Positions 6,093 through 19,053 of a stretch of DNA of 64,000 nucleotides are shown piece after piece (within the stretch, counting starts at the first letter, position 1; every line of letters starts with the position of its first letter). The DNA is taken from assembly GCF_003337245.1 (NCBI RefSeq), contig NZ_QPJE01000004.1:1-64000 (forward strand), read 5' to 3'. The position numbers and the translations under genes are program-made. The notes beneath the pieces were generated by a model that saw only the letters and a list, made by a program, of their open reading frames with translations, searched no databases and had not been told where the DNA came from. Source of the DNA: Halanaerobium sp. MA284_MarDTE_T2. Lineage in GTDB: Bacteria; Bacillota; Halanaerobiia; Halanaerobiales; Halanaerobiaceae.

Positions 6093-7730
6093 TTACTCTG
6101 CTGCAGTTCCTTCTCCAAAACCTACTTCTTCCAGCCATTCTGTAGGATATCCAACAGATTCTATTTTATCTGGATGATTTATATAACCATCATTATATTT
6201 ATAAATCATCTCATCAGCGAATTCCCACCATGCATCTACAACTTTTTTAGCATTATTGTAGCTGTATTCTGTTAGAAAATCTTCAGTGGTTTCTTTACCA
6301 TGAATATTATAAATTTCTACAGCAGCTTTGTCAATTGCAGGCTGCATTTTAAAGAATTTACCTTCATATTTTTCCTGCATTGCTTTAATATTTTCAATCA
6401 TATATGAGTATTTAAGATCTGCCCAGTTGGATACAAAATCAAATGCCCACCAGGCTGAAGATCTATCAAATTTGTCTCTTCTGCCAGAAGTAAATGATTC
6501 AGGCAGTTCTTTAGTACCACTATATACAGGCACATAACAGGTAGAATGAGGAGCATCTTCGCCGAACCAGAGTACTGATCTTACTGGAGATGGCATCCAT
6601 CCTCTGGCCTGTCCAACAAAACTATAGGCACAGCGGAACATTGAGATAGCTCTTTCCCAGTCCATATCCTTTTTGCCTTCAGGTTTTACAAAAGAAGGTG
6701 TGGCATATCTGTTAGGTGTGCCAAATGGGCCAGCTGCGAGGCCTTCTGTAAGATCAAATCTTGTACCTTCATAATGGTCGCGCTTAAGTGCCATTAAGTC
6801 CTGTGCTGAAACCTTCTTGTCAGGTTTTACAGAGAAAGGATAGCGGTCTGCTTTAGGATCAAAGTTTTGGGATGGAGCAAGTTTAGAAAGGACTCTCCAC
6901 TCGCGGCGCTTCTGATAATATTCTGCTCCATATGGATTTGGATTATATGCTTCACAGAACAGGAACTCTTCAGAAGGATCCCACCAGCCCATTTCTTCTG
7001 CAAATGATTTTACATTATCAGATGCCATTGCTTTATCAGGATCATCAAGGTCAAGAGTATCGATTCTACTTCTGTTAGCTACAACACTAATATGTCCGTC
7101 TGGAACTCTTTTAGCAGCCCATACAGCACCAGGTTTGCCGCTGCCGGGAGACCAGAGTGGTCCAGGACCTACAATTTCGAACATCCATGCTTCTTTACCA
7201 TCGATTACAGTAAGTGATTCTCCTCCATCACCATAACCATACTTTTCTGCCAGCTTACCCATAACTTGTACTGCTTCTCTGGCAGTTTTAGCTCTCTGCA
7301 GAGCAAGTCTTTCTAATTCTTCAATCATTAAAATTGCATCTGTATTGCCGAGTTCACTTCTACCACTGAAAGTAGCTTCACCAATCATAACTCCATGTTC
7401 ATTCATAAATGGATAAGCAATGTGGAAGTAAGTATATGTTTCTTCTACCTGAGGAATTTTACCTAATTCTGTTACATTATAACCAGGGATTCCATCATGA
7501 CAGCGTGTTTTGTACACTGTTGTCATAGCTCCATCTTCAAATTTTTGGCCTTCAATAATTTGAATACGTGCATCATAGTTTCCATCACAGGTGTGTGTTG
7601 TCATAACTGATCCATCAGTAGAAGCATCCTTACCGACCATAATTGAAGTACAGGCATTAACAGCTGAAACACCTAAAAAGACTATAAGTAATACCGAAAG
7701 TGTAACTGAAAGTAATTTTTTATTAAACAT
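6093..7730 (-). CDS. Secreted C69-family dipeptidase
   Basis: 545 residues. An N-terminal signal sequence (about 1-26) ends ...SAVNA, directly followed by CTSIMVGKDASTDGSVMTTH. In peptidase family C69 this Cys becomes the N-terminal nucleophile after cleavage. Further family blocks are GGESLTVIDGKEAWMFEIVG, KPGAVWAAKRVPDGHISVVAN and DKFDRSSAWWAFDFVSN. Predicted location is outside the membrane. It is the last gene of a six-gene operon, 13 bases after its paralogue, with AGGGGGC before the ATG. In context it probably hydrolyses short peptides, perhaps gamma-glutamyl ones, released outside the cell; that specificity is inference. Confidence 0.88.
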   Translation of the reverse strand: MFNKKLLSVTLSVLLIVFLGVSAVNACTSIMVGKDASTDGSVMTTHTCDGNYDARIQIIEGQKFEDGAMTTVYKTRCHDGIPGYNVTELGKIPQVEETYTYFHIAYPFMNEHGVMIGEATFSGRSELGNTDAILMIEELERLALQRAKTAREAVQVMGKLAEKYGYGDGGESLTVIDGKEAWMFEIVGPGPLWSPGSGKPGAVWAAKRVPDGHISVVANRSRIDTLDLDDPDKAMASDNVKSFAEEMGWWDPSEEFLFCEAYNPNPYGAEYYQKRREWRVLSKLAPSQNFDPKADRYPFSVKPDKKVSAQDLMALKRDHYEGTRFDLTEGLAAGPFGTPNRYATPSFVKPEGKKDMDWERAISMFRCAYSFVGQARGWMPSPVRSVLWFGEDAPHSTCYVPVYSGTKELPESFTSGRRDKFDRSSAWWAFDFVSNWADLKYSYMIENIKAMQEKYEGKFFKMQPAIDKAAVEIYNIHGKETTEDFLTEYSYNNAKKVVDAWWEFADEMIYKYNDGYINHPDKIESVGYPTEWLEEVGFGEGTAAE

Positions 7731-7743
7731 TTAATTTGCCCCC

Positions 7744-9333
7744 TTAATTATTATTATTATTAATTTCGTAGTAAAGCTCATCTGCCAGTTTCCAGTAGCG
7801 ATTTTCTGTCCAGTGCATTAGGGAATTAGTATGATTTGTTAAAAGTTCTTTTACAGCATCTTGATCTTCGGTAATATTTAGGATCATTGCTTTTTCTTCA
7901 ATCTGATCCTGAAGTTCAAAGATATGATTCTGCATTGGATTGAGGACAGAGTCAACTTTTTCTCTTAACTCTCCATACCTTAAGTTAACAAAATCATCAA
8001 CCTGAGCAAAAGCCCACCAGGCTGAATCTCTGTCAAATTTATCTCTGTTAAGAGTTTTCCAGGAAGTTGGAACATCTTCAATTCCTACATACATTGGAAT
8101 AAATGGACTATTTTCTGGATTATCAAGTCCAAACCAGACTACACCACCAATTTCATCTGGCAGCCAGCTTCTTGCCTGAGAAACAAAGAAGTAGGAGCAG
8201 TAGTAGCGCGCAATAGGTCGATAATTATTTAAATCAAGTAATTCTATCATGTCACCTGCTACCTGAGGGGTTGCCAGATTGCTTTTAACTTTTTCTCCTT
8301 TACTATTCTCATAGAACCAGCCATCCTGTTCTGTAACATCATGTTTGGTATTTTTATTTGTATCTCTGAAGAGTGCGATAACATCATGTATAGAAACTTT
8401 TTTATCTGGCTTAACTGAGAAAGGATAGTTATGAGCATTTTCGAATTTCCAGTTTCCAGAAGGTGCTAATTCATTATAAACACGCCACAATCTGTTGCTG
8501 CACCCAGGTTCCCATGGGTGATTATCCATATCACCATAGACTTTGTTCCAGAAAAATTTACTTTCTGTTTCATCATATATGCCCAGTTCTACAGCAGTTT
8601 CTTTATAGTTATCAGAAACTAAAATATCTTCCATGTCTGCATGGTTTTCTGGTATTTCACCAATTCTACTTATATTTGGGACAACAGTTATATGACCATC
8701 TGGTACTTTTTTAGCTGCCCATACAGCACCAGGTTTGCCGCTATCTTTTGTCCACATTGGTCCTACACCAAAAACCTCAAAAACCCATGCTTCATTTGGA
8801 TCAGTAACTGTCAGACATTCACCACGGTAACATGATTCCCTGAATCCATATTCTTCAGCAAGTTTTCCCATAAGTTTTACAGCTTCACGGGCAGTCTTAC
8901 ATCTCTGCAGGGCAAATACTTCCAGCTGTTCTATTGTCATAATTGCCTCATCACTATTGGCAGTTTCAGGTGCTCCAACGATAGTTGTTTCCCCTATTAT
9001 TAGCTGATGTTCATTTGCATAAGGATAAGCGCCATGGAAGTATTTGTATGTATGTTCTACTTCTGGTATTTCACCAAGTTTTACTAGATCTTTGTGGTCA
9101 GCATAAACAATATTTTCATAGACAGGTGCCATAGTTCCGGCTTTATGGTCCTGAGCAGGAATAATTTGTATGCGCGAGTCATATCGTCCATCAACTGTGT
9201 GAGAAGTTATTACCGAACCATCGGTTGAAGCATTCTTGCCAACAACAATATCAGTACAGGCAAAAGTAGATCCACTAAGAACTAAAGTGATAATTAACAA
9301 CAGAACTGTAGAAGTAGTAATTTTTCTTTTCAT
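7744..9333 (-). CDS. Secreted C69-family dipeptidase, paralogue
   Basis: 529 residues with a signal sequence ending ...SGSTFA just before CTDIVVGKNASTDGSVITSH, placing the nucleophilic Cys at the mature N terminus. It shares the CLTVTDPNEAWVFEVFG, KPGAVWAAKKVPDGHITVVP and DKFDRDSAWWAFAQV blocks with the following gene, so the pair is a tandem duplication that has diverged. The C terminus ends in an Asn run (NNNNN). AAAGGGGAG precedes the ATG. Role as for its neighbour: extracytoplasmic peptide hydrolysis in the permease/M14 operon. Confidence 0.88.
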   Translation of the reverse strand: MKRKITTSTVLLLIITLVLSGSTFACTDIVVGKNASTDGSVITSHTVDGRYDSRIQIIPAQDHKAGTMAPVYENIVYADHKDLVKLGEIPEVEHTYKYFHGAYPYANEHQLIIGETTIVGAPETANSDEAIMTIEQLEVFALQRCKTAREAVKLMGKLAEEYGFRESCYRGECLTVTDPNEAWVFEVFGVGPMWTKDSGKPGAVWAAKKVPDGHITVVPNISRIGEIPENHADMEDILVSDNYKETAVELGIYDETESKFFWNKVYGDMDNHPWEPGCSNRLWRVYNELAPSGNWKFENAHNYPFSVKPDKKVSIHDVIALFRDTNKNTKHDVTEQDGWFYENSKGEKVKSNLATPQVAGDMIELLDLNNYRPIARYYCSYFFVSQARSWLPDEIGGVVWFGLDNPENSPFIPMYVGIEDVPTSWKTLNRDKFDRDSAWWAFAQVDDFVNLRYGELREKVDSVLNPMQNHIFELQDQIEEKAMILNITEDQDAVKELLTNHTNSLMHWTENRYWKLADELYYEINNNNN

Positions 9334-9358: not shown

Positions 9359-10531
9359 TTATTCATAATAAATACGATCTGAATCCATATTAGCCGGATT
9401 TTTAAAGTAATGGCCAACCCCATTTTTTATAATTTCTGCATATTTAGGTACATTTTTAATTTTTATCTCCTTTCCGGGGTTCATTTGGTTCCAGATCTGA
9501 GCAACCATTAGTGCAGTAGAACAGTGTCTTCCAACTCGGACTTCAATTGGCCAGCCATCTTCATCAATAGTTTCATACAGCAGACCAAATTCTCCAGCTC
9601 GCTGAACAAAAGGATCTTTTCCTTCTAAAAGTAAATGTTCATCTGTTATTCCTCTAACTCGGTCTAAAAATGGTTCCGGAGTTTCAAAAAGAAGTGAGAT
9701 GGCATCTGAATAATCTCCTACCTCTCGATGAGAGAGTCCATGTAAGGATTTAGGGGAAAATTCCATACTGATTGGTTTTTCAAATTCCATATCTGTCAGC
9801 ATCATAGAAGCCATTGCTGCTATATTTCGGCCCGATTCGTGAGCAACGATAGTACTTATTACCGGATATTCCAATTCTGCCTCATGAAAGTCAATAAATA
9901 AATCCACTTTTTCCTGTTTGATAATCTGCATAAAAGCGTAATTTACCTGTTCTGTAAAAGAGCCGTCTTTTTTGCCGGGCCAGGTTCTATTGAAATTTCT
10001 AATATCCATATAAGCTAACATCTGTTTACTGGGATAGTGAACATATACTTCTGGATCAGGCCAGGAATCTAAAGGATTTGTCCATCTGTCACCCATTCGA
10101 TATTTTTTTTCTCCCCAGTCAGTTTTTATAGTATAAAACTGTGGGTAGGCATCACCAGGCCTAGTTACTGTCGAAGCACTTCTGTTGGCTCTAATGGCAA
10201 CAATCAGTTTTCCTTTTTCTAATGTAGCATTCTCAGCGAGAATTTCGGCACTGAGATTAGCAGCTGGTTCTTCGGGATGAGTTCCCCCAATCACAAAGAA
10301 GATAGCACCTGGTTTTCCGCTGTCTAATATATAGATGTTACAATCTGCGACAGTATTTTTAATAGGTTCAAAATAATCACCCAAAGTTTTAACTTCAGTT
10401 ACAGATGGACCTGCAACTACTGTTTCTTTGTAATTTCTGTGAGCAAGAAAAGATCGAGCAGATATAACCAGAGCAGTAATTATCAGAACAGCAGTTAATA
10501 GTTTAATAATAATTAATTTTTTACTAGACAT
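9359..10531 (-). CDS. Membrane-anchored M14-like zinc hydrolase (AstE/aspartoacylase-related)
   Basis: 390 residues with one N-terminal hydrophobic helix (about 8-27) and the remainder probably outside. GGTHPEEPAA supplies the H-x-x-E zinc pair and LFIDFHEAELEYP the third ligand, as in the succinylglutamate desuccinylase/aspartoacylase branch of M14 carboxypeptidases. A later LLFETPEP can supply the catalytic Glu. Such enzymes cut N-acyl-amino-acid or terminal peptide bonds. Between the permease and the C69 genes it probably trims glutamyl oligomers; that substrate is inferred. AGGTG precedes the ATG. Confidence 0.78.
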   Translation of the reverse strand: MSSKKLIIIKLLTAVLIITALVISARSFLAHRNYKETVVAGPSVTEVKTLGDYFEPIKNTVADCNIYILDSGKPGAIFFVIGGTHPEEPAANLSAEILAENATLEKGKLIVAIRANRSASTVTRPGDAYPQFYTIKTDWGEKKYRMGDRWTNPLDSWPDPEVYVHYPSKQMLAYMDIRNFNRTWPGKKDGSFTEQVNYAFMQIIKQEKVDLFIDFHEAELEYPVISTIVAHESGRNIAAMASMMLTDMEFEKPISMEFSPKSLHGLSHREVGDYSDAISLLFETPEPFLDRVRGITDEHLLLEGKDPFVQRAGEFGLLYETIDEDGWPIEVRVGRHCSTALMVAQIWNQMNPGKEIKIKNVPKYAEIIKNGVGHYFKNPANMDSDRIYYE

Positions 10532-10542
10532 CTTAATTCACC

Positions 10543-10707
10543 TCATTTAATCCTCAATATTCTAAGAATAAAGGGGATTATTATTACTGAATAGAGTACA
10601 GCTTCCTGAGCATCTTTGGTCTTAACAATTTCTCTCAGGAGTATAAAGGCAATAAAAGCACTAATTAAATAGTAACTGAACTCTATAATTGAATTTATAA
10701 TACCCAT
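10543..10707 (-). CDS. Small membrane protein next to the permease
   Basis: About 54 residues, MGIINSIIEFSYYLISAFIAF then ILLREIVKTKDAQE and a second hydrophobic helix, VLYSVIIIPFILRIL. The start at 10707 is chosen because AGGAGG lies 7 bases before it; an in-frame ATG at 10737 lacks such a site. It is co-transcribed between the permease and the M14-like gene. It may be an accessory subunit of the permease. No family is recognised. Confidence 0.65.
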   Translation of the reverse strand: MGIINSIIEFSYYLISAFIAFILLREIVKTKDAQEAVLYSVIIIPFILRILRIK

Positions 10708-10726
10708 ATGATAACCTCCTGATTTA

Positions 10727-12016
10727 TTATCCTCCAACTAAAAATGACAGCTGATTGCTGAAAACGAGAAAAATGGTACATAAAGCTAAAATAAATGCCA
10801 TTGGTATTAAACAGGTTTTGAGAAAATCTTTATAATATCTGCCGCTGTAATCAAGTTCTATTACAGTTGCGCGTCCTACAACTGCTGTAGGTGGCAATAT
10901 ATCTCCTATAGGCCACATAACTGCCATGGCTGAAAGTATTATAACTGGATTAAATCCTTTCATATTAAAGAGAAATATTAGAGGAACTCCAAGCAGTGGA
11001 GCTACAGCATACTGCAGCAGACCTTCTGAGACAGGCAGAATTATAAAGAGTGAAGCAAATAAAAACCAGACAGGAAGGGTTACCACAGCCAGTGAGATCA
11101 AACCTCTGGCACCACTTAAGGCCATAATTTGAATTAAAATTCCAACAACAATCATAATTCCAACAAGAGGAATAAGTGATCTAATTGTTTTTCCGGCAAT
11201 ATTTAGAATATTAAGTTTTTTAGGACTGAGAATAAACATTGCTAATGCTGAGATTAAAAACATAAGCGGCAGACCTAAAATCGGCATTTTAAATGGAAAT
11301 AATCTTCCCGCAACAATTAAGACTATAAGTATAAGGAAAGGTGTGCCTACCCTAGTCCAGTTCATTTTTTCTGGAGGTACTGGAAGTTCTTTCAAAATTT
11401 TATCAAGCTCTGGATTTTCTCCTTTTGCTCCTAAAAAAAACATTGTAAATAAGGCTCCGATAACTGTTATTACCAGCAGGGGCTGCATAAATCCTACATA
11501 GGGCATATTTGCTCCAGCAGCAGCCATCATGGCCCAGAGATTAATAGGAGGGGCAGCAGCACTCATAGAAGCACAGAGAAAGATTATTGCTGCAGTTCTT
11601 GTTTCAGATATTCCCATATATATCAGTACTGTACCTACAAGTGTACCTACAGTTAATACTGTGGCAGCTCCGGCACCTGTAAGAGCTCCCGGTATCATAA
11701 GTACAAATGTTAGAAATAAAAGAGTTAAATAGCGGTGTTCATGAAATCGAATTATTATTTTTCTTACCATGAATGCAATACCACCGGACTCTTTAACCAG
11801 ATTGATAAAAAGAGTTGCTGTAATAAATATCAGTGATACATCGTAATATGTAAATGCACCTTCTACAAGATGCCTTACCGGAACACCACCGGTATGATAA
11901 ATAGCAGCAGCCAGAGCTGACAGAAGCATTGCCAGCTCAATTCCTAATTTGAAATATGTTCCGACAGCAAAAGTTACTGCTATTATGATGAGTACAATTC
12001 CAGCATGTAAAAACAT
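10727..12016 (-). CDS. Ion-transporter-superfamily (DctM-like) permease
   Basis: About 429 residues with 10-12 predicted membrane helices. GALTGAGAATVLTVGTLVGT and ASMSAAAPPINLWAMMAAAG are the two loop-like signature regions, arranged as in TRAP DctM and related anion permeases. No TRAP solute-binding protein or DctQ is adjacent, so it may be a secondary anion transporter or pair with the DUF6305 protein encoded just upstream. Likely cargo is an acidic amino acid, oligomer or dicarboxylate (inference). The ATG at 12016 is preferred for its GAGGTG site; a GTG at 12025 lies inside that site. Confidence 0.75.
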   Translation of the reverse strand: MFLHAGIVLIIIAVTFAVGTYFKLGIELAMLLSALAAAIYHTGGVPVRHLVEGAFTYYDVSLIFITATLFINLVKESGGIAFMVRKIIIRFHEHRYLTLLFLTFVLMIPGALTGAGAATVLTVGTLVGTVLIYMGISETRTAAIIFLCASMSAAAPPINLWAMMAAAGANMPYVGFMQPLLVITVIGALFTMFFLGAKGENPELDKILKELPVPPEKMNWTRVGTPFLILIVLIVAGRLFPFKMPILGLPLMFLISALAMFILSPKKLNILNIAGKTIRSLIPLVGIMIVVGILIQIMALSGARGLISLAVVTLPVWFLFASLFIILPVSEGLLQYAVAPLLGVPLIFLFNMKGFNPVIILSAMAVMWPIGDILPPTAVVGRATVIELDYSGRYYKDFLKTCLIPMAFILALCTIFLVFSNQLSFLVGG

Positions 12017-12049
12017 TAAATACACCTCATTTCAGTAACAGTTAAACTT

Positions 12050-12613
12050 TTATTGAACATCGAACAGTTCTTTGACTGCTTCTCCCATTTCCATATTCTT
12101 ATCAAAATATATGGCAGGAATATCTAATTCTTCGCTCTTTTCTGTAAAAAATCCATCTTCATTACTTGATTCTTTTATAATTAGAGCATCACTTTGCGGC
12201 ATAACAATTTCTATTGATTTTGCATCATTTTCGTCAACACGCCTTGACATACCCTCAATATGAGCACCCAAAACCTTCAGGCCGTTTTCTTTAGCAGTTT
12301 TTATTAAAGCATTAATTCTTTCTGCTTCCTGATTCATATTTGTACCGGCAGCACCCATACCTTTACCACTGGTACCCATTGTGACAATCAGAGTTTTATA
12401 ATTGCTTCCCTCAAGATCAGCTGCTGTAAGCAGATCTTTCTGCTCACATTCAACTCCAGCCTGCTGGCAGATCATTTTTACCATCAGTGCACCTGGACTT
12501 TGTCCACAGGTTGTAACTACAGCTGGCTGCTCAAATACAGGCAGGGCAGCAGAAGTAATAAAACTCAGAGTAAATATTGTAACTACTGTTAAAAGTAAAA
12601 TCTTTTTAAACAT
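12050..12613 (-). CDS. Exported DUF6305 protein
   Basis: 187 residues with an N-terminal signal sequence (about 1-23). The body has the three motifs shared with the fusion protein at 14812-16020: TTCGQSPGALMVKM, GTSGKGMGAAG and HIEGMSRR. The sequence alternates beta strands and helices like a small Rossmann-type domain. The name DUF6305 is recalled from memory and should be confirmed. It is the first gene of the operon running to 6093, with AAGGAGGAAAG before the ATG. An extracytoplasmic ligand-binding role feeding the permease is possible but unproven. Confidence 0.75.
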   Translation of the reverse strand: MFKKILLLTVVTIFTLSFITSAALPVFEQPAVVTTCGQSPGALMVKMICQQAGVECEQKDLLTAADLEGSNYKTLIVTMGTSGKGMGAAGTNMNQEAERINALIKTAKENGLKVLGAHIEGMSRRVDENDAKSIEIVMPQSDALIIKESSNEDGFFTEKSEELDIPAIYFDKNMEMGEAVKELFDVQ

Positions 12614-12709
12614 TATCTTTCCTCCTTTTTAAATTATTTTATTCACATATATAGATTTCAACTATTATTTTATTTATCCTATTTTTTCTCTTATTTCTCT
12701 CAAAAAATT

Positions 12710-12766
12710 CAAAAAATTAAAAAACCATCAACTGTGAACCTGTTGTTAGTTCAGAATTGATGGTTT
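12710..12766 (-). terminator. Terminator of the pgs-two-component operon
   Basis: AAACCATCAA (12721-12730) pairs with TTGATGGTTT (12756-12765), with GTGAAC/GTTCA inner pairing. On the minus strand it is followed by TTTTTTAATTTTTT. It separates the response regulator gene from the next operon. Confidence 0.85.
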
Positions 12767-12840: not shown

Positions 12841-13461
12841 TTACTTCAGTTTGTATTTATGGATTGGTCTGCCAACTTTACCATAATCAAGTTTTACTAT
12901 GGCGATGTTTTTTTCATTAAGAAAGTTTAAGTAGCGGTGGACAGTCTGGTATGCTAAATTTGTTTCATTAGAGATTTCCTGGATGGTTTTGGGACTTTGA
13001 ATTTTATTTAGATAATTATATATAATCTTTAAAGTTTTTAGGCTCATTCCTTTAGGAATATCAAGGCTGTTTATATTATAAGGAAAATGATATTTGCTGT
13101 CATTATAATTTAAATGAAGATTGATTCTGGAAATTAGATCAGCAGTTCTTATCGGCTTGTTTGCAAAATCATCCGCACCTGCATTCAGAAATTTTTCAGC
13201 AAGATCAAGAGATTCATCGACAGTTAAAACAAGTATAGGTATTGAGTTATTAATTTTTCTTATTTCTTTAACTAATTTTAAACCATTTATATCAGGCATA
13301 TGGTAATCAATCATTAATAAATCAAATTCTTCATTTTTTGCGTATTTTAAAGCTTCAGTTCCAAGTAAGGTTGTGGTAATATTAAATCCTGCTGCTTCAG
13401 CAACAGCTTCTAATGTAAAAAGAATATCTTTTTCGTCATCAACTGCCAGTATTTTTTTCAC
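12841..13461 (-). CDS. Response regulator with winged-helix output
   Basis: 206 residues. The receiver domain (1-120) has the acidic pair DDE near residue 8, the phospho-acceptor Asp in LLMIDYHMPDINGL, and the conserved Lys in FANKPIRTADL. The C-terminal HTH, TIQEISNETNLAYQTVHRYL followed by KVGRPIHKYKLK, resembles CitB/DctR-type regulators of dicarboxylate uptake. It starts at a GTG with GGAGG 9 bases upstream, 2 bases after the kinase stop codon. It is the last gene of the pgs operon. It may regulate the pgs operon and/or the adjacent permease operon. Confidence 0.88.
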   Translation of the reverse strand: MKKILAVDDEKDILFTLEAVAEAAGFNITTTLLGTEALKYAKNEEFDLLMIDYHMPDINGLKLVKEIRKINNSIPILVLTVDESLDLAEKFLNAGADDFANKPIRTADLISRINLHLNYNDSKYHFPYNINSLDIPKGMSLKTLKIIYNYLNKIQSPKTIQEISNETNLAYQTVHRYLNFLNEKNIAIVKLDYGKVGRPIHKYKLK

Positions 13462-13462
13462 A

Positions 13463-14821
13463 TTAATGCACCTCCGGTAATATTATCTCTGCTTCAGTTC
13501 CCTGGTGAAATTTGCTGTCAATATTGATTGTTCCACCATGACTTTCTATAACTTTTTTAACAAAATGCAGCCCCAGACCTGTATTTTCCATACCGGTTGT
13601 ATAACCAATTTTCCAGATGTTATCTATTTTATCTTCAGGTATACCTTTTCCATTATCTCTAATAGAAATATGTATTTTGTTATTTTGTTTTCTGGCATTT
13701 ATATCAATTTTTCCATTTTCGGGATCAATAGCTTTAAGAGAGTTATCTATCAAATTTATTAAAGCACGCGACAGTCTGACTTTATTTGCTTCAATATCTA
13801 TATTTTTATCATAATTAAAAGATACATGATCACTAATTTCTTCCAGTGCAAGCTGAATTTTGAGAAAATCAAACAGCTCTTCTATAGAAATTTTTCTTTT
13901 TTTATCTTCATAAAGAATTTCAGATATCATTTGAGACATTTTTTCTGCTGAGCTGTTTATTTTTTCTGTATATTCGTGTATTTTTTGATCTTTTATTTTC
14001 ATATCAATTACACCACTTAGACCCTGTATGGTTACCAGGGGTGTTTTTAAATCGTGAACCAAATGTTTTATCTCACTAAAATATCTGGATTTTACAGCTT
14101 CCAGCTCCAGTTCCCTTATTTTTTCTTCTTTTTTTCTACTTTCTTCAATAAGATATAAATTATTATAATAATCAACTACAACTCTGGTTAATATTAATGC
14201 ATTGATCATAATTATTATTGAAAAAGTAAAACCAAAAAAGTTTATAATATATTCTGCATCGATAAATTCTGTTACTTCTCTAATAGATATAATAATTTCG
14301 CCTCTGCCAAATCCATAATTAGACAAAAAGGGTATAATGTCCAGCCAGTCAATACTGAAAAGAAATAGGGAAATAATTATTGTTTTGATAAAAATATGAT
14401 GTATCTTCTTTGTTATGTAGTGTAGTATGAATATAATTATAATAGTTAAATAAGATGGCCCTGCAAAAACAAATGCTATATCGTAAATCCAGCTAATAAG
14501 CTGATATATTACAGGAATTATTATAAGGGTAATAAGAAAAGTGAAATTCCTAAATGGACCATAGTTTTCAAGACTTTCTGCAAGAATAAAAGCTCCTAAA
14601 TATATAGGAAGATGTCTGAGTGTGTTGAGCATAACCAATTTTGCAGAAACAAGCAGCAGAAGTCCGCTGTCCTGGGCAGAAATACTTTTATATAGCTGTT
14701 TAATTAAATTATATTGAAGTTCTTTTGTAAATGATGGCAGTATGAGAGCTAAAATAATTATAATTATTGATGTAAAAAATTTGCTTTTATCCAATTTTTT
14801 TAGACTGAGGCTTATGGCCAT
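13463..14821 (-). CDS. Membrane sensor histidine kinase
   Basis: 452 residues. The N-terminal half (about 1-225) has several membrane helices and no large periplasmic domain. A short coiled coil leads to the H-box, IKHLVHDLKTPLVTIQGL. The N-box is ALINLIDNSLKAID, G1 DNGKGIPEDKI and G2 GLGLHFVKKVIESHGG. It overlaps the fusion gene upstream by 10 bases and is followed directly by its response regulator, so the three are translationally coupled. Sensing probably happens within the membrane or in short loops; the signal could be cell-envelope glutamyl polymer or osmotic state (inference). Confidence 0.9.
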   Translation of the reverse strand: MAISLSLKKLDKSKFFTSIIIIILALILPSFTKELQYNLIKQLYKSISAQDSGLLLLVSAKLVMLNTLRHLPIYLGAFILAESLENYGPFRNFTFLITLIIIPVIYQLISWIYDIAFVFAGPSYLTIIIIFILHYITKKIHHIFIKTIIISLFLFSIDWLDIIPFLSNYGFGRGEIIISIREVTEFIDAEYIINFFGFTFSIIIMINALILTRVVVDYYNNLYLIEESRKKEEKIRELELEAVKSRYFSEIKHLVHDLKTPLVTIQGLSGVIDMKIKDQKIHEYTEKINSSAEKMSQMISEILYEDKKRKISIEELFDFLKIQLALEEISDHVSFNYDKNIDIEANKVRLSRALINLIDNSLKAIDPENGKIDINARKQNNKIHISIRDNGKGIPEDKIDNIWKIGYTTGMENTGLGLHFVKKVIESHGGTINIDSKFHQGTEAEIILPEVH

Positions 14822-16020
14822 TTCAGCTCAACTCCATTGATTTTTAGTAAAGTGGTTATTAAATTAAGCTGATATTCAAAGCGCTTTTTTTCTGGAAGTT
14901 TTACACAGGTTTCTAGTGTAAAAGAAGGAATTTTTAAATTTTGTCCAACAGCCCAGGTTAAACTTCCTTCAATAGGAGGGCTAATTAAAACAAACTTTTC
15001 TATTTTTTCCTTTATATCAGAATTAATAGATTCAACAGCTTCCGCTCCCTGCCAGATAGAATTTTCATCGGCATATGCTATCAGTGACTGTCCTAAATAG
15101 TTTTTATTTATAAAATTAAATTCCTGTGATTCATGTAAATCTATCAGCAGGTCAGGAGAAAACCCTTTAATTAGATTATATATTTCTGAAGCTCTTTTTT
15201 CTGCATATGTGCCATTGGGATTTCCAGGAAAAGATCGGTTTAATAATTCTCCTTTTGGGTAGTTTCTTACTCCGGCAGATATAGCTTTAGGATTTGCCCT
15301 TGGAATAATTATTATTCTTCCCCCATCAACGAAGGGTTCCAGCATTTTTACTGCAGCCAGCCGTGGAACAGTTTCATTGCCGTGAGTTCCAGCGTTTATA
15401 ACTACAGTAGTTTCTGTTTGATTTCCATTGATATAATATTCTACAGTCTGAGACTGACTCTGAAAAAGATTGGCCAGGATGGGTTTTATTTGAGATAGAT
15501 TTTCTGTTATTTCAAGTGGGATATTATATTTTTTTGATGCTTTAGAAAAATAATTATCAAAATTGCTGTCTTTAGAGATAATCATATAATCAGCATGTGG
15601 AGTGACAACATCTAAAAGTTTATCTGATCTATTTTCTCGGCGGCCTGTTCCACCAAGATGAGTAAGAAGAATAAATGTGCCGGTTTTTTCTGCTTTTTTA
15701 ATCAGGTTTTTTGTTCTTAGAAGTTCATATTCATAATCTATTCCGGCAGCTCCAACACCCTTACAGCTGTGTCCCACTGCAATTATTAGTGTAGAATATC
15801 CCTCCATATCTTCAGCCTGAAGCAGAGGACGGTATTTGAAATTAACATTTTGATTTTCGAGCACAACTTTTATCATGATACCATCGGGATTTTGACCCGG
15901 ACAGGTTATTACCACCGGCTGGGCTGGATGAATTTTTAAATCTTCTGCCTGTAAGAATGGCTTAAAAGCAAATAATAATATAATACAGAGTAAAAAAGAT
16001 ATAAAAAACTTGTGGTTCAT
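14812..16020 (-). CDS. Exported DUF6305-M14 zinc hydrolase fusion
   Basis: 402 residues. A signal sequence (1-25) is followed by a DUF6305-like domain (about 30-185) with TCPGQNPDGIMIK, GHSCKGVGAAG and THLGGTGRR, matching the stand-alone protein at 12050-12613. The C-terminal half (about 190-400) is an AstE/aspartoacylase-type M14 domain: NAGTHGNETVP gives His and Glu zinc ligands, LLIDLHESQEF the second His, and SFTLETCV the likely catalytic Glu. It shares one base with the pgsW stop and overlaps the kinase gene. Position inside a pgs operon suggests release or trimming of gamma-glutamyl chains; this is inference. Confidence 0.82.
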   Translation of the reverse strand: MNHKFFISFLLCIILLFAFKPFLQAEDLKIHPAQPVVITCPGQNPDGIMIKVVLENQNVNFKYRPLLQAEDMEGYSTLIIAVGHSCKGVGAAGIDYEYELLRTKNLIKKAEKTGTFILLTHLGGTGRRENRSDKLLDVVTPHADYMIISKDSNFDNYFSKASKKYNIPLEITENLSQIKPILANLFQSQSQTVEYYINGNQTETTVVINAGTHGNETVPRLAAVKMLEPFVDGGRIIIIPRANPKAISAGVRNYPKGELLNRSFPGNPNGTYAEKRASEIYNLIKGFSPDLLIDLHESQEFNFINKNYLGQSLIAYADENSIWQGAEAVESINSDIKEKIEKFVLISPPIEGSLTWAVGQNLKIPSFTLETCVKLPEKKRFEYQLNLITTLLKINGVELKWP

Positions 16021-17123
16021 TATTTAACCTCCTTTTTTAGCTTTCCAGATATTATTGAAAAAATTAGAGGTAAAGCAATCAGTAGAAGAAAAAATTTAAT
16101 TAGTGTTTTATTATATTTAACAATATAATATACATCTGATTTACCAGGTTTTGGTAGAGGAACAGGGTCTACCTGTATTCCGCTTTTATGCGCCAGATTT
16201 TCAATATTGAGCAGATGTATAACAGGAATATTTTTAGATAAATAGTAAGAGATAAGACCATTTTCTGCATATTCTGTATTCAGATGTCCTGGAATAGTTA
16301 ATCCATTATTAAATTTAACCGATGAAGATGTGCTGCCAAAATTTGCAGAAGCTCCTCCAATATTAATAAAACATTTAATCTTATCATTTTTGGAAAAATC
16401 AGAAAAAATATCAATTCTTTTGTGAATACTTTCTGACAGAGTATCCTCATAAATTAAAGGGATATTACTTCGATCAGCAATATCAAAAAATGTTTTTTTA
16501 TCATCTATAAAAAATAAGTTATCTGCTCGATCATTATCACCACCAAAAGATAAGGCAGTTATTTCTGTACTTATAATATTGTGCTGTCTGAGGTATTTGA
16601 GCATGTCAATAAAAGTAAAGTCTGGAATATTTGCTCCATACATTGAAGCACCAATAGAATAGATGAGGGATACATCCAGCTCCATTATTTCTGCTGCTGA
16701 AAGAACGGCCAAAATAAGTCCGGGAAAAGAACCGCTGGCACCAACTGCAATTTTATCTCCTTTTTTTAAATCTAATTGATAAAAATATTTTACAATAAGG
16801 GCAGCAAAATCTGGATTTGCAGCTGTTCTTTTAGCTTTTAAATCACCTAATGTAGTTGTAATTTTAGTATATTCTTTTCCAATCAGTGCTGTTCTATTGG
16901 GATCTAGAGAACTATCAATTTGATATCCCAAAGCAGTTTTCTCTTCATAAAGAATATTTTCGGCTTTTTTCATTTTTTGGGCGGCTTTGATCTGCTTATC
17001 AAATGATGGATGTTCAGTTCTATAATTGCTGAAGGATAATATTAATAGTGCAGAAACAGCAATTAAAGAAGATATAACTATTGTTTTTATATTTATTTTA
17101 CCTTTTATCCAGTTTGTGAACAT
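16020..17123 (-). CDS. pgsW: Poly-gamma-glutamate system protein PgsW
   Basis: 367 residues with a membrane helix at each end (about 16-34 and 338-358) and a large domain between them that contains ALIVKYFYQLDLKKGDKIAVGASGSF-type sequence, a GANIPDFTF motif and NIGGASANFGS. This layout matches the PgsW family found beside pgsB and pgsC in bacteria without a classical pgsA. Its exact role in polymer synthesis or export is not established. It follows pgsC by 12 bases, with AAAGGAGC before the ATG, and abuts the fusion gene. Confidence 0.82.
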   Translation of the reverse strand: MFTNWIKGKINIKTIVISSLIAVSALLILSFSNYRTEHPSFDKQIKAAQKMKKAENILYEEKTALGYQIDSSLDPNRTALIGKEYTKITTTLGDLKAKRTAANPDFAALIVKYFYQLDLKKGDKIAVGASGSFPGLILAVLSAAEIMELDVSLIYSIGASMYGANIPDFTFIDMLKYLRQHNIISTEITALSFGGDNDRADNLFFIDDKKTFFDIADRSNIPLIYEDTLSESIHKRIDIFSDFSKNDKIKCFINIGGASANFGSTSSSVKFNNGLTIPGHLNTEYAENGLISYYLSKNIPVIHLLNIENLAHKSGIQVDPVPLPKPGKSDVYYIVKYNKTLIKFFLLLIALPLIFSIISGKLKKEVK

Positions 17124-17135
17124 ATTTTAGCTCCT

Positions 17136-17564
17136 TTAAACAAATAACATCATTGACAACCTAACAAAAATTGAAACAACAGCTAGAGAGGATAATGTTG
17201 CAGTAATACCCTGTCTCAGCATATCATTTGCAAGCAGACCAGGTATTATGTAACCGATGACTCTTAAATCTTCGCTTACTGGAAAATATTCAATAAAAAG
17301 TGATCTATAAAACCAGCCAATCAGATAACCAATAATAACACAGGCAGTAAATCTCCTTCTGCTGTACATAATAACATAATTTGATAAAAATTTCACAAAA
17401 TAATAGGTTAATAGAGATGTCAGTACAGTTGCTAAAATTCTGTATGGAGCCTGCCAGAAAAAAGCAAGATATCCGGGAACAATTATACCTCCTGTGTAAA
17501 AACCGGTTATTTCTGTAAAGATAAAACTCAGTAAAATTCCTATTCCCACTGATTCTATTATCAT
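17136..17564 (-). CDS. pgsC: Poly-gamma-glutamate synthesis membrane protein PgsC/CapC
   Basis: 142 residues, strongly hydrophobic with about five helices. FTEITGFYTGGIIVPGYLAFF near the N terminus is the CapC/PgsC family signature. In known systems PgsC forms a membrane complex with PgsB that polymerises glutamate through gamma-carboxyl amide bonds. The ATG overlaps the pgsB stop codon by 4 bases, so the two are translationally coupled. Length is normal for the family. Confidence 0.9.
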   Translation of the reverse strand: MIIESVGIGILLSFIFTEITGFYTGGIIVPGYLAFFWQAPYRILATVLTSLLTYYFVKFLSNYVIMYSRRRFTACVIIGYLIGWFYRSLFIEYFPVSEDLRVIGYIIPGLLANDMLRQGITATLSSLAVVSIFVRLSMMLFV

Positions 17565-18760
17565 TTTAATTCAACTCCATATTTTTCAAAAAATTCAGAG
17601 ATTATTTCTGCATCACCATGTATGTTTCCACAGCCAAATATTATTATATCTTTATCTTCTTTAACTTTACTAAAAAAAGCAGAAAGATGTCTGTATGTAT
17701 AGAATGTATTAAAAAGATGCAGTTTCAAAATAGGTTTTTTTTGTTTTGTTCTTTTTTTCAATAGTCTTTTCTGGCGAAATTTTAATGCCCCACTCAAAAT
17801 ATACCCATCAAATCTATTTTCGACAGTTAGAAAGTCAGCAAATTCTTTAAGCCGGAATGCTCTATCACTGCGGTGGCTGATTAGAGCAAAAACCTGTGGA
17901 TTATCTACAGAAAATTTCTTTATTTTTTCAGCAGTACGCTTCCATATTATTTCTGTCGAATCCCTGTCATTGGCAGCAAAAGCTTTAACAAAAACTATAT
18001 TTCTCATTTTCTCTTCTAAATGATAATATTTTAAACTGCCTGGATCTTCAGATGCAGTGTACATTCCGTTTAAGGCAGTTTTCCTGTCTATTCCAAAATG
18101 CCGGGCAATTTTAAGAGCACAGGCAGCATTATCTGAAAAAACCTGTTTATCAAATTTTTTTAGTTCATCTTCAGAAAAAATAATATCTCTGGTTGAAATA
18201 AATTGATTATTGCGCATTTCAGCTTTTTCTTTAATAAAGCTGTAAAGATGATATTCTGATGATACAACATGAGCATTGTAAGGCAGACTTAAACATATGG
18301 TATCAGCAATTTCTGTTAAACTGCTGCCCATTTTGTCCAGGTGATCATTTCTAATATTAGTAATTACCATATAATCTGCATTTAAAAATAAATTTTCGCT
18401 GCTCCACTGGATTTCCGGGGAGATGGCCATACATTCTATTACAAGCACATCCACGTTTTCTTTTACCGCCAGTTGAACTATTTTTTTTTGTTCAGAAATG
18501 CTGGGTGGTCCATGTCGTATTATTTCCTGTTCACTTCCATCAGAAAAAATAATTCTGGCAGCAGAACCAGTTATTTTAGCAAGAACCTTAAATCCTGCAT
18601 GTCTTAATGCGCCAGCAGTTAATCTTGTTGTAGATGATTTTCCTCGTATTCCATTAATATGTATAATATAAGGGATTTTTGAGAGATTTTTTTTATGTTT
18701 GTGTCTTTCTATTATTCCTAATACTATAAAAATTACTGCTAAAACTGATATGAATTTCAT
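17561..18760 (-). CDS. pgsB: Poly-gamma-glutamate synthase PgsB/CapB
   Basis: 399 residues. After an N-terminal membrane helix, HINGIRGKSSTTRLTAGAL is the Mur-ligase-type P-loop and VLVIECMAISPEIQ the following conserved block; later NIRNDHLDKMG and AFAANDRDST also fit CapB. It activates glutamate with ATP and adds it to the growing gamma-linked chain. It is the first gene of the six-gene operon; AAAGG lies about 10 bases before the ATG. The 293-base gap to the epimerase gene must hold divergent promoters; a TATAAT on the minus strand (18816-18811) is the best -10 candidate, with a weak -35. Confidence 0.9.
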   Translation of the reverse strand: MKFISVLAVIFIVLGIIERHKHKKNLSKIPYIIHINGIRGKSSTTRLTAGALRHAGFKVLAKITGSAARIIFSDGSEQEIIRHGPPSISEQKKIVQLAVKENVDVLVIECMAISPEIQWSSENLFLNADYMVITNIRNDHLDKMGSSLTEIADTICLSLPYNAHVVSSEYHLYSFIKEKAEMRNNQFISTRDIIFSEDELKKFDKQVFSDNAACALKIARHFGIDRKTALNGMYTASEDPGSLKYYHLEEKMRNIVFVKAFAANDRDSTEIIWKRTAEKIKKFSVDNPQVFALISHRSDRAFRLKEFADFLTVENRFDGYILSGALKFRQKRLLKKRTKQKKPILKLHLFNTFYTYRHLSAFFSKVKEDKDIIIFGCGNIHGDAEIISEFFEKYGVELK

Positions 18761-19053
18761 ATGTTTAAACCTTTCTAAATTTTAATGTTTTTAAAATTAA
18801 AAAATAATATATTATAAATTAGAACCCACTTTCAGTTTACTATAAAGAAGAAGATATATCAATGAATTTTAAATAAATTAACTTTTATTGGAATCTATAA
18901 TTTAAAAATTGAAAAAATTTATACATAAAAAATTAAAAGTATCATAAAAAGGAAAAAGCATCTGATGCTAGAAGTATATATTTAAGATAAATATATGCAC
19001 AGAAGTTTTATAAAAAATACTGTGCTGGAGAGATGATATTGAGGTGGGAAATA

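Follow-up and report, generated by a model that had tools for sequence, protein, structure and literature searches.

Why would an operon for the synthesis of poly-γ-glutamate (γ-PGA) carry its own hydrolase and its own two-component system? The question is raised by a six-gene run (positions 12841 to 18760, all on the minus strand) in the window, the whole 64,000-nucleotide stretch of Halanaerobium sp. MA284_MarDTE_T2 analysed here. The run comprises pgsB, pgsC, pgsW and the genes for a DUF6305/M14 fusion protein, a histidine kinase (HK) and a response regulator (RR). γ-PGA has been studied mostly as the capsule or slime produced by PgsBCA of Bacillus. The initial annotation proposed that the hydrolase and the sensor pair exert feedback control on polymer length or amount. 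The gene set continues 3´ of the RR gene on the same strand as a second operon (12613 to 6093), which that annotation had missed, and the sole predicted RR site lies 5´ of this second operon. On balance, we consider it probable that the two operons form a γ-glutamyl polymer and peptide system, in which a three-part sensor activates the operon for hydrolysis and uptake via a 23-bp motif. This motif is the new element of the analysis.

The motif, a direct repeat (GAGAAATAAGAGAAAAAATAGGA; 12677–12699, minus strand), was derived from a comparison of four close relatives as a near-invariant sequence within the second operon's promoter region. A single copy is present in each of four Halanaerobiaceae genomes (this one, G014, G015 and G022), here 5´ of the second operon. 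It recurs with 0–2 mismatches 5´ of the corresponding operons of Clostridium tetanomorphum, a Clostridiales metagenome-assembled genome, Fusibacter and a genome of 61% GC. A pattern scan of 398 genomes of the phylum yielded 15 matches, compared with 2 for the reversed pattern. All but one of the 15 are located 5´ of a DUF6305/γ-glutamyltransferase (GGT) operon or of an ABC transporter operon, mostly of the peptide type; the remaining one (L154) is found at the 3´ end of an Opp operon, where the contig stops 178 bases away. A match in G011 (2 mismatches) was taken as chance, as it falls within a coding sequence of 866 residues resembling a Clp ATPase. A −10-like element begins 18–21 bases 3´ of the motif in 21 sites, which include near relatives and are thus not all independent, and none of 500 shuffles was as good. 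With this spacing the motif covers the usual −35 position, as for an activator. The motif is the predicted operator of the RR.

The two operons are separated by a terminator-like stem-loop with a T-tract (12722–12766, minus strand; fold z −3.7). In all four Halanaerobiaceae genomes the RR gene is followed by such a stem-loop and T-tract; the stem sequences are unlike each other, which argues for a kept terminator. The 23-bp motif was not found 5´ of pgsB in the window or in the three relatives, and a different conserved promoter stretch is present there. This stretch, like TTGATATnnnTnnnTCTTTATAGTAAACTGAAAGT (18800–18862, minus strand), is kept in the four Halanaerobiaceae, is unlike the 23-bp motif and might serve as a promoter or as another regulatory site.

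The presence of the motif tracks the HK-RR pair. Among loci of which none was selected via the motif, it occurs (≤3 mismatches) in 14 of 35 loci with the HK and in 0 of 83 without it; some of the HK loci that lack it are truncated contigs, and others carry weaker versions. The HK membrane region, searched alone, was found in 37 of the 398 genomes. Pooling the PgsW, motif and HK searches gave 44 HK loci, 39 of which have a winged-helix RR next to the HK. DUF6305 is encoded near the HK in 33 of these loci, in 26 of them directly upstream. Opp, DcuC/GGT or PgsW genes adjoin the HK in 43 of the 44, and the single exception comes from a genome that has the motif and Opp genes on another contig. In the HK tree the partner type changes 4 times, compared with 15 in shuffles, and the sensor regions are only ~18–45% identical between lineages. 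The DUF6305 tree contains two subfamilies, one next to the HK and one next to DcuC, and both are represented in the window; the protein directly 5´ of the HK belongs to a distinct subfamily.

Ten of the 15 motif genomes have no match to TIGR04332, the family of PgsW. Where the contig permits, DUF6305-HK is found in these genomes beside an Opp/Dpp-type operon; in one of them (L159) it stands beside a DUF3798-type ABC operon. This association with ABC operons in genomes that lack TIGR04332 suggests sensing of peptide or γ-glutamyl nutrients more than of polymer length. The recognition helix of the RR (LAYQTVHRYL) is kept in both the pgs and the Opp/Dpp branch, with single substitutions in some rows of the alignment, and the same sensor appears to be linked with PgsBCW in the former and with Opp/Dpp transporters in the latter. 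Several loci (L158 9357–11926, L155–L157, L161, L162, L194, L212 and L213) have DUF6305-HK-RR beside Opp/Dpp operons in genomes that lack TIGR04332, most with the same motif, and probably represent an undescribed peptide-uptake regulator. Two other arrangements were observed. In L197, L198, L199 and L210, HK-RR lies in a GGT-DcuC-M14 cluster with no clear motif copy, and PgsBCW is on a different contig. In L086 (4218–5687) and L035, a Halanaerobiaceae PgsBCW locus has the HK with no recognisable RR adjoining.

The HK (13463–14821, minus strand; PF00512 HisKA and PF02518 HATPase_c) has 5–6 closely spaced membrane helices in its first 225 residues, and no extracytoplasmic domain is evident from hydropathy. 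Its H256 and ATP-site residues are conserved, as are D52 and K102 of the RR (12841–13461, minus strand; PF00072 Response_reg with a C-terminal winged helix). The DUF6305 domain is Rossmann/flavodoxin-like, and its structure matches are generic (best Z 9.8).

The synthesis genes themselves were verified by coordinates and by family. pgsB (17561–18760, minus strand) encodes the Mur-ligase-like ligase subunit of γ-PGA synthase (TIGR04012, 370.5 bits; cut-off 222.7), and its NGxRGK P-loop, the nucleotide-binding loop, is conserved. pgsC (17136–17564, minus strand) encodes the membrane subunit (TIGR04011, 129.8 bits; cut-off 96.45; PF14102 is also above its cut-off). PgsB and PgsC thus both exceed equivalog or curated cut-offs, and the TIGR04332 protein PgsW (16020–17123, minus strand; 371.4 bits; cut-off 100) adjoins them. 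PgsW comprises an alpha/beta domain flanked by a single membrane helix at either end; its AlphaFold model has a pLDDT of 92.9, and no PDB match with E < 0.001 was obtained (best Z 7.2, not informative). The six genes are tightly coupled: pgsB and pgsC overlap by 4 bases, pgsW and the fusion gene by 1 base and the fusion and HK genes by 10 bases, and gaps of 12 bases and 1 base separate pgsC from pgsW and HK from RR. The absence of a classical pgsA/capA was borne out, since the whole genome (99.8% complete) lacks any match to CapA/PgsA (PF09587), while B. subtilis and 6 other control genomes are positive. A GGT is encoded elsewhere in the genome (G000:C8:84713-86197), and no member of the pgs cluster adjoins it.

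The fusion protein (14812–16020, minus strand; PF19823, 184 bits; PF24827, 55.7 bits) bears a likely signal peptide. Its tree position assigns the DUF6305 part to the sensor-type subfamily, and Pfam assigns the M14 part to the AstE/AspA-type zinc hydrolases. H213, E216, the N261-R262 pair and H296 are conserved and E368 is present, corresponding to the HxxE...H zinc site, the NR pair and the catalytic Glu; the model of this half is poor (pLDDT ~50). A second, standalone AstE-like M14 hydrolase (9359–10531, minus strand), membrane-anchored or exported, scores below the Pfam cut-off (PF24827, 21.6 bits; cut-off 25), yet its H85, E88, R182 and H216 are conserved in relatives. The closest solved relatives of the window M14 enzymes are Mlr6093 (2qj8) and DoeB (6twl). 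These proteins gave no match to the known γ-PGA hydrolase family, and the Pfam scan yielded only PF24827.

The second operon, all on the minus strand, begins with an exported DUF6305 protein of the carrier-type subfamily as judged from the tree (12050–12613; PF19823, 174 bits), followed by a DcuC-like carrier (10727–12025; PF03606, 24.2 bits, barely above the cut-off of 23.1). A 64-residue membrane protein without a Pfam match (10543–10737) is encoded between the carrier and the M14 hydrolase, in the same place as in L032, L034 and L101. Most loci encode such a small protein with two membrane helices between the carrier and M14 genes (~50 residues in clostridial loci), and annotation easily overlooks it. 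Two exported C69-family dipeptidases complete the operon (7744–9333, PF03577 E 1e-55, Cys26 conserved; 6093–7730, PF03577 E 2e-72). A perfect consensus TTGACA-17-TATAAT within the 3´ portion of the final C69 gene (6334–6306, minus strand) is possibly due to chance.

Both operons are conserved beyond this genome. The six-gene order, including the fusion, recurs in G014, G015 and G022 with differing genes further out, and the second operon follows the first in the same order. In G015 the small membrane protein is not called, and G015 and G022 each have a single C69 gene. PgsBC without PgsA, the exported zinc hydrolase and the sensor pair therefore constitute one conserved unit, and to this extent the initial annotation is supported. 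Less strict forms of the arrangement are found in several phyla, some of them with γ-glutamyltransferase. TIGR04332 is patchily distributed, with matches in 5 of 38 genomes from the order and in 25 of the 398 phylum genomes sampled. The 74 named PgsW loci come from Bacillota, Spirochaetota, Atribacterota, Thermotogota, KSB1 and others; two or more of DUF6305, DcuC, M14 and C69 occur within 10 kb of PgsW at 31 of the 74 and, among the 35 longer loci, at 20. These shares are not population estimates, since the loci are the best PgsW matches. Gene calls at related loci came from a simple script and from profiles of the window proteins, so that small or frameshifted genes may escape. HK-RR is coupled to only part of the TIGR04332 clusters. 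GGT is found at 13 loci, in relatives within the same operon (PF01019 confirmed in 5 of 5 tested, E 1e-125 or better), which supports γ-glutamyl chemistry.

In the mechanism that we propose, PgsB, PgsC and PgsW would make and export a γ-glutamyl polymer, as their families suggest. The exported M14 hydrolases and C69 dipeptidases, together with GGT in relatives, would cut the polymer or similar peptides extracellularly, and the DcuC-like carrier would import the cleavage products, inward transport being the predicted direction. The exported DUF6305 domain whose gene immediately precedes that of the HK would act as the ligand-binding partner and form a three-part sensor with the HK and the RR; the ligand is probably a peptide or a γ-glutamyl product. 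With ligand, the phosphorylated RR would bind the 23-bp direct repeat over the −35 position of the DUF6305-carrier-M14-C69 operon and activate it. A bolder version, which we hold tentatively and would not expect to be right in full, is that this is an undescribed class of three-part Bacillota sensor with its own 23-bp operator, one branch of which governs a closed make-cut-reuptake cycle of a γ-glutamyl polymer kept as a regulated extracellular store.

Several points weigh against the proposed mechanism. RR binding, expression of the second operon and the polymer are all predictions from sequence. The M14 domains match AstE/AspA instead of the known γ-PGA hydrolase family, and their activity on γ-glutamyl bonds is a candidate one; the C69 dipeptidases and the DcuC-like carrier are assigned by family, which does not give their substrates. 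Ligand binding by DUF6305 is read from gene position and a generic fold only. A few HK loci with a full neighbourhood lack a good motif (e.g. L196–L199, L203 and L204), and some other regulator could read it. Alternatively, PgsBCW might make short γ-glutamyl conjugates or another amide in place of a capsule-like γ-PGA, with the whole cluster serving peptide or amino-acid acquisition. Carriers, dipeptidases and AstE-like enzymes as neighbours, the missing PgsA and a sensor family otherwise tied to Opp/Dpp transporters would fit this, but the scores of PgsB and PgsC against their equivalog models and the GGT of relatives do not, and we regard it as rather unlikely. Polyglutamate production is also reported for Fusobacterium nucleatum (PMC3815933), an organism whose genes were outside the present comparison, and is cited against such a reading.

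The feedback originally proposed, in which the sensor pair and the fused hydrolase mainly set polymer length or amount by acting on pgsBCW, agrees with the position of both in the pgs operon itself. In L122 and L140, moreover, the motif (5 mismatches in L140) precedes a single run of 10 genes, comprising GGT, DUF6305, the carrier, both M14 genes, pgsBCW, HK and RR. This makes co-regulation with pgsBCW likely there, and control of synthesis plausible. The conservation of sensor and hydrolase with PgsBC stands; however, the motif lies 5´ of the second operon and not of pgsB in the window and its three relatives, and the same sensor family occurs beside peptide ABC transporters without TIGR04332. 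Feedback on length or amount is thus quite unlikely as the main function. That the gene order is accidental, or merely a recently transferred block, is highly improbable: the patchy spread within the order fits horizontal transfer, but the order is kept in diverged relatives with differing flanks, the HK sensor regions have diverged widely between lineages, and operator, recognition helix and catalytic residues are shared. The locus survey rejects an accidental order, unless the relatives are recent copies from one donor.

Many bacteria, most of them uncultured, carry PgsBC without PgsA next to exported hydrolases, a carrier and a sensor, which suggests a regulated nutrient cycle that involves the polymer or γ-glutamyl peptides. 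With the predicted operator, the earlier loose idea of sensing narrows to a single DNA-binding question, and the motif predicts target operons in other genomes. DUF6305 gains a first functional hypothesis. The open-access literature searched, which leaves out most subscription papers, contained no paper on DUF6305, PgsW or this cluster.

Among known systems, DctB-DctS-DctR of B. subtilis combines an accessory extracytoplasmic partner with an HK and an RR that act on a transporter gene (PMC6978683). Similarly, an exported partner is encoded here with the HK and the RR, directly before the HK in 26 of the 44 loci. In contrast, the partner is DUF6305, which may bind both the HK and a ligand by analogy, and the HK has 5–6 membrane helices without an evident extracytoplasmic sensor domain; the likeness is therefore functional only, and membership is not claimed. 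The γ-PGA hydrolases PghP and PghL are carboxypeptidase-like zinc enzymes (PMC6506827) and share this chemistry with the window enzymes, which match AstE/AspA (PF24827) instead. The PgsB-PgsC-TIGR04332 core is common to the clusters of the NCBIfam 'poly-gamma-glutamate system protein'. With Bacillus PgsBCA/CapBCA and its CapD or GGT, the locus shares PgsB and PgsC, and GGT in the clusters of relatives; its product may be a γ-linked polyglutamate. Unlike the Bacillus systems, it has PgsW instead of PgsA/CapA and also includes M14 and C69 enzymes, a carrier and a sensor pair.
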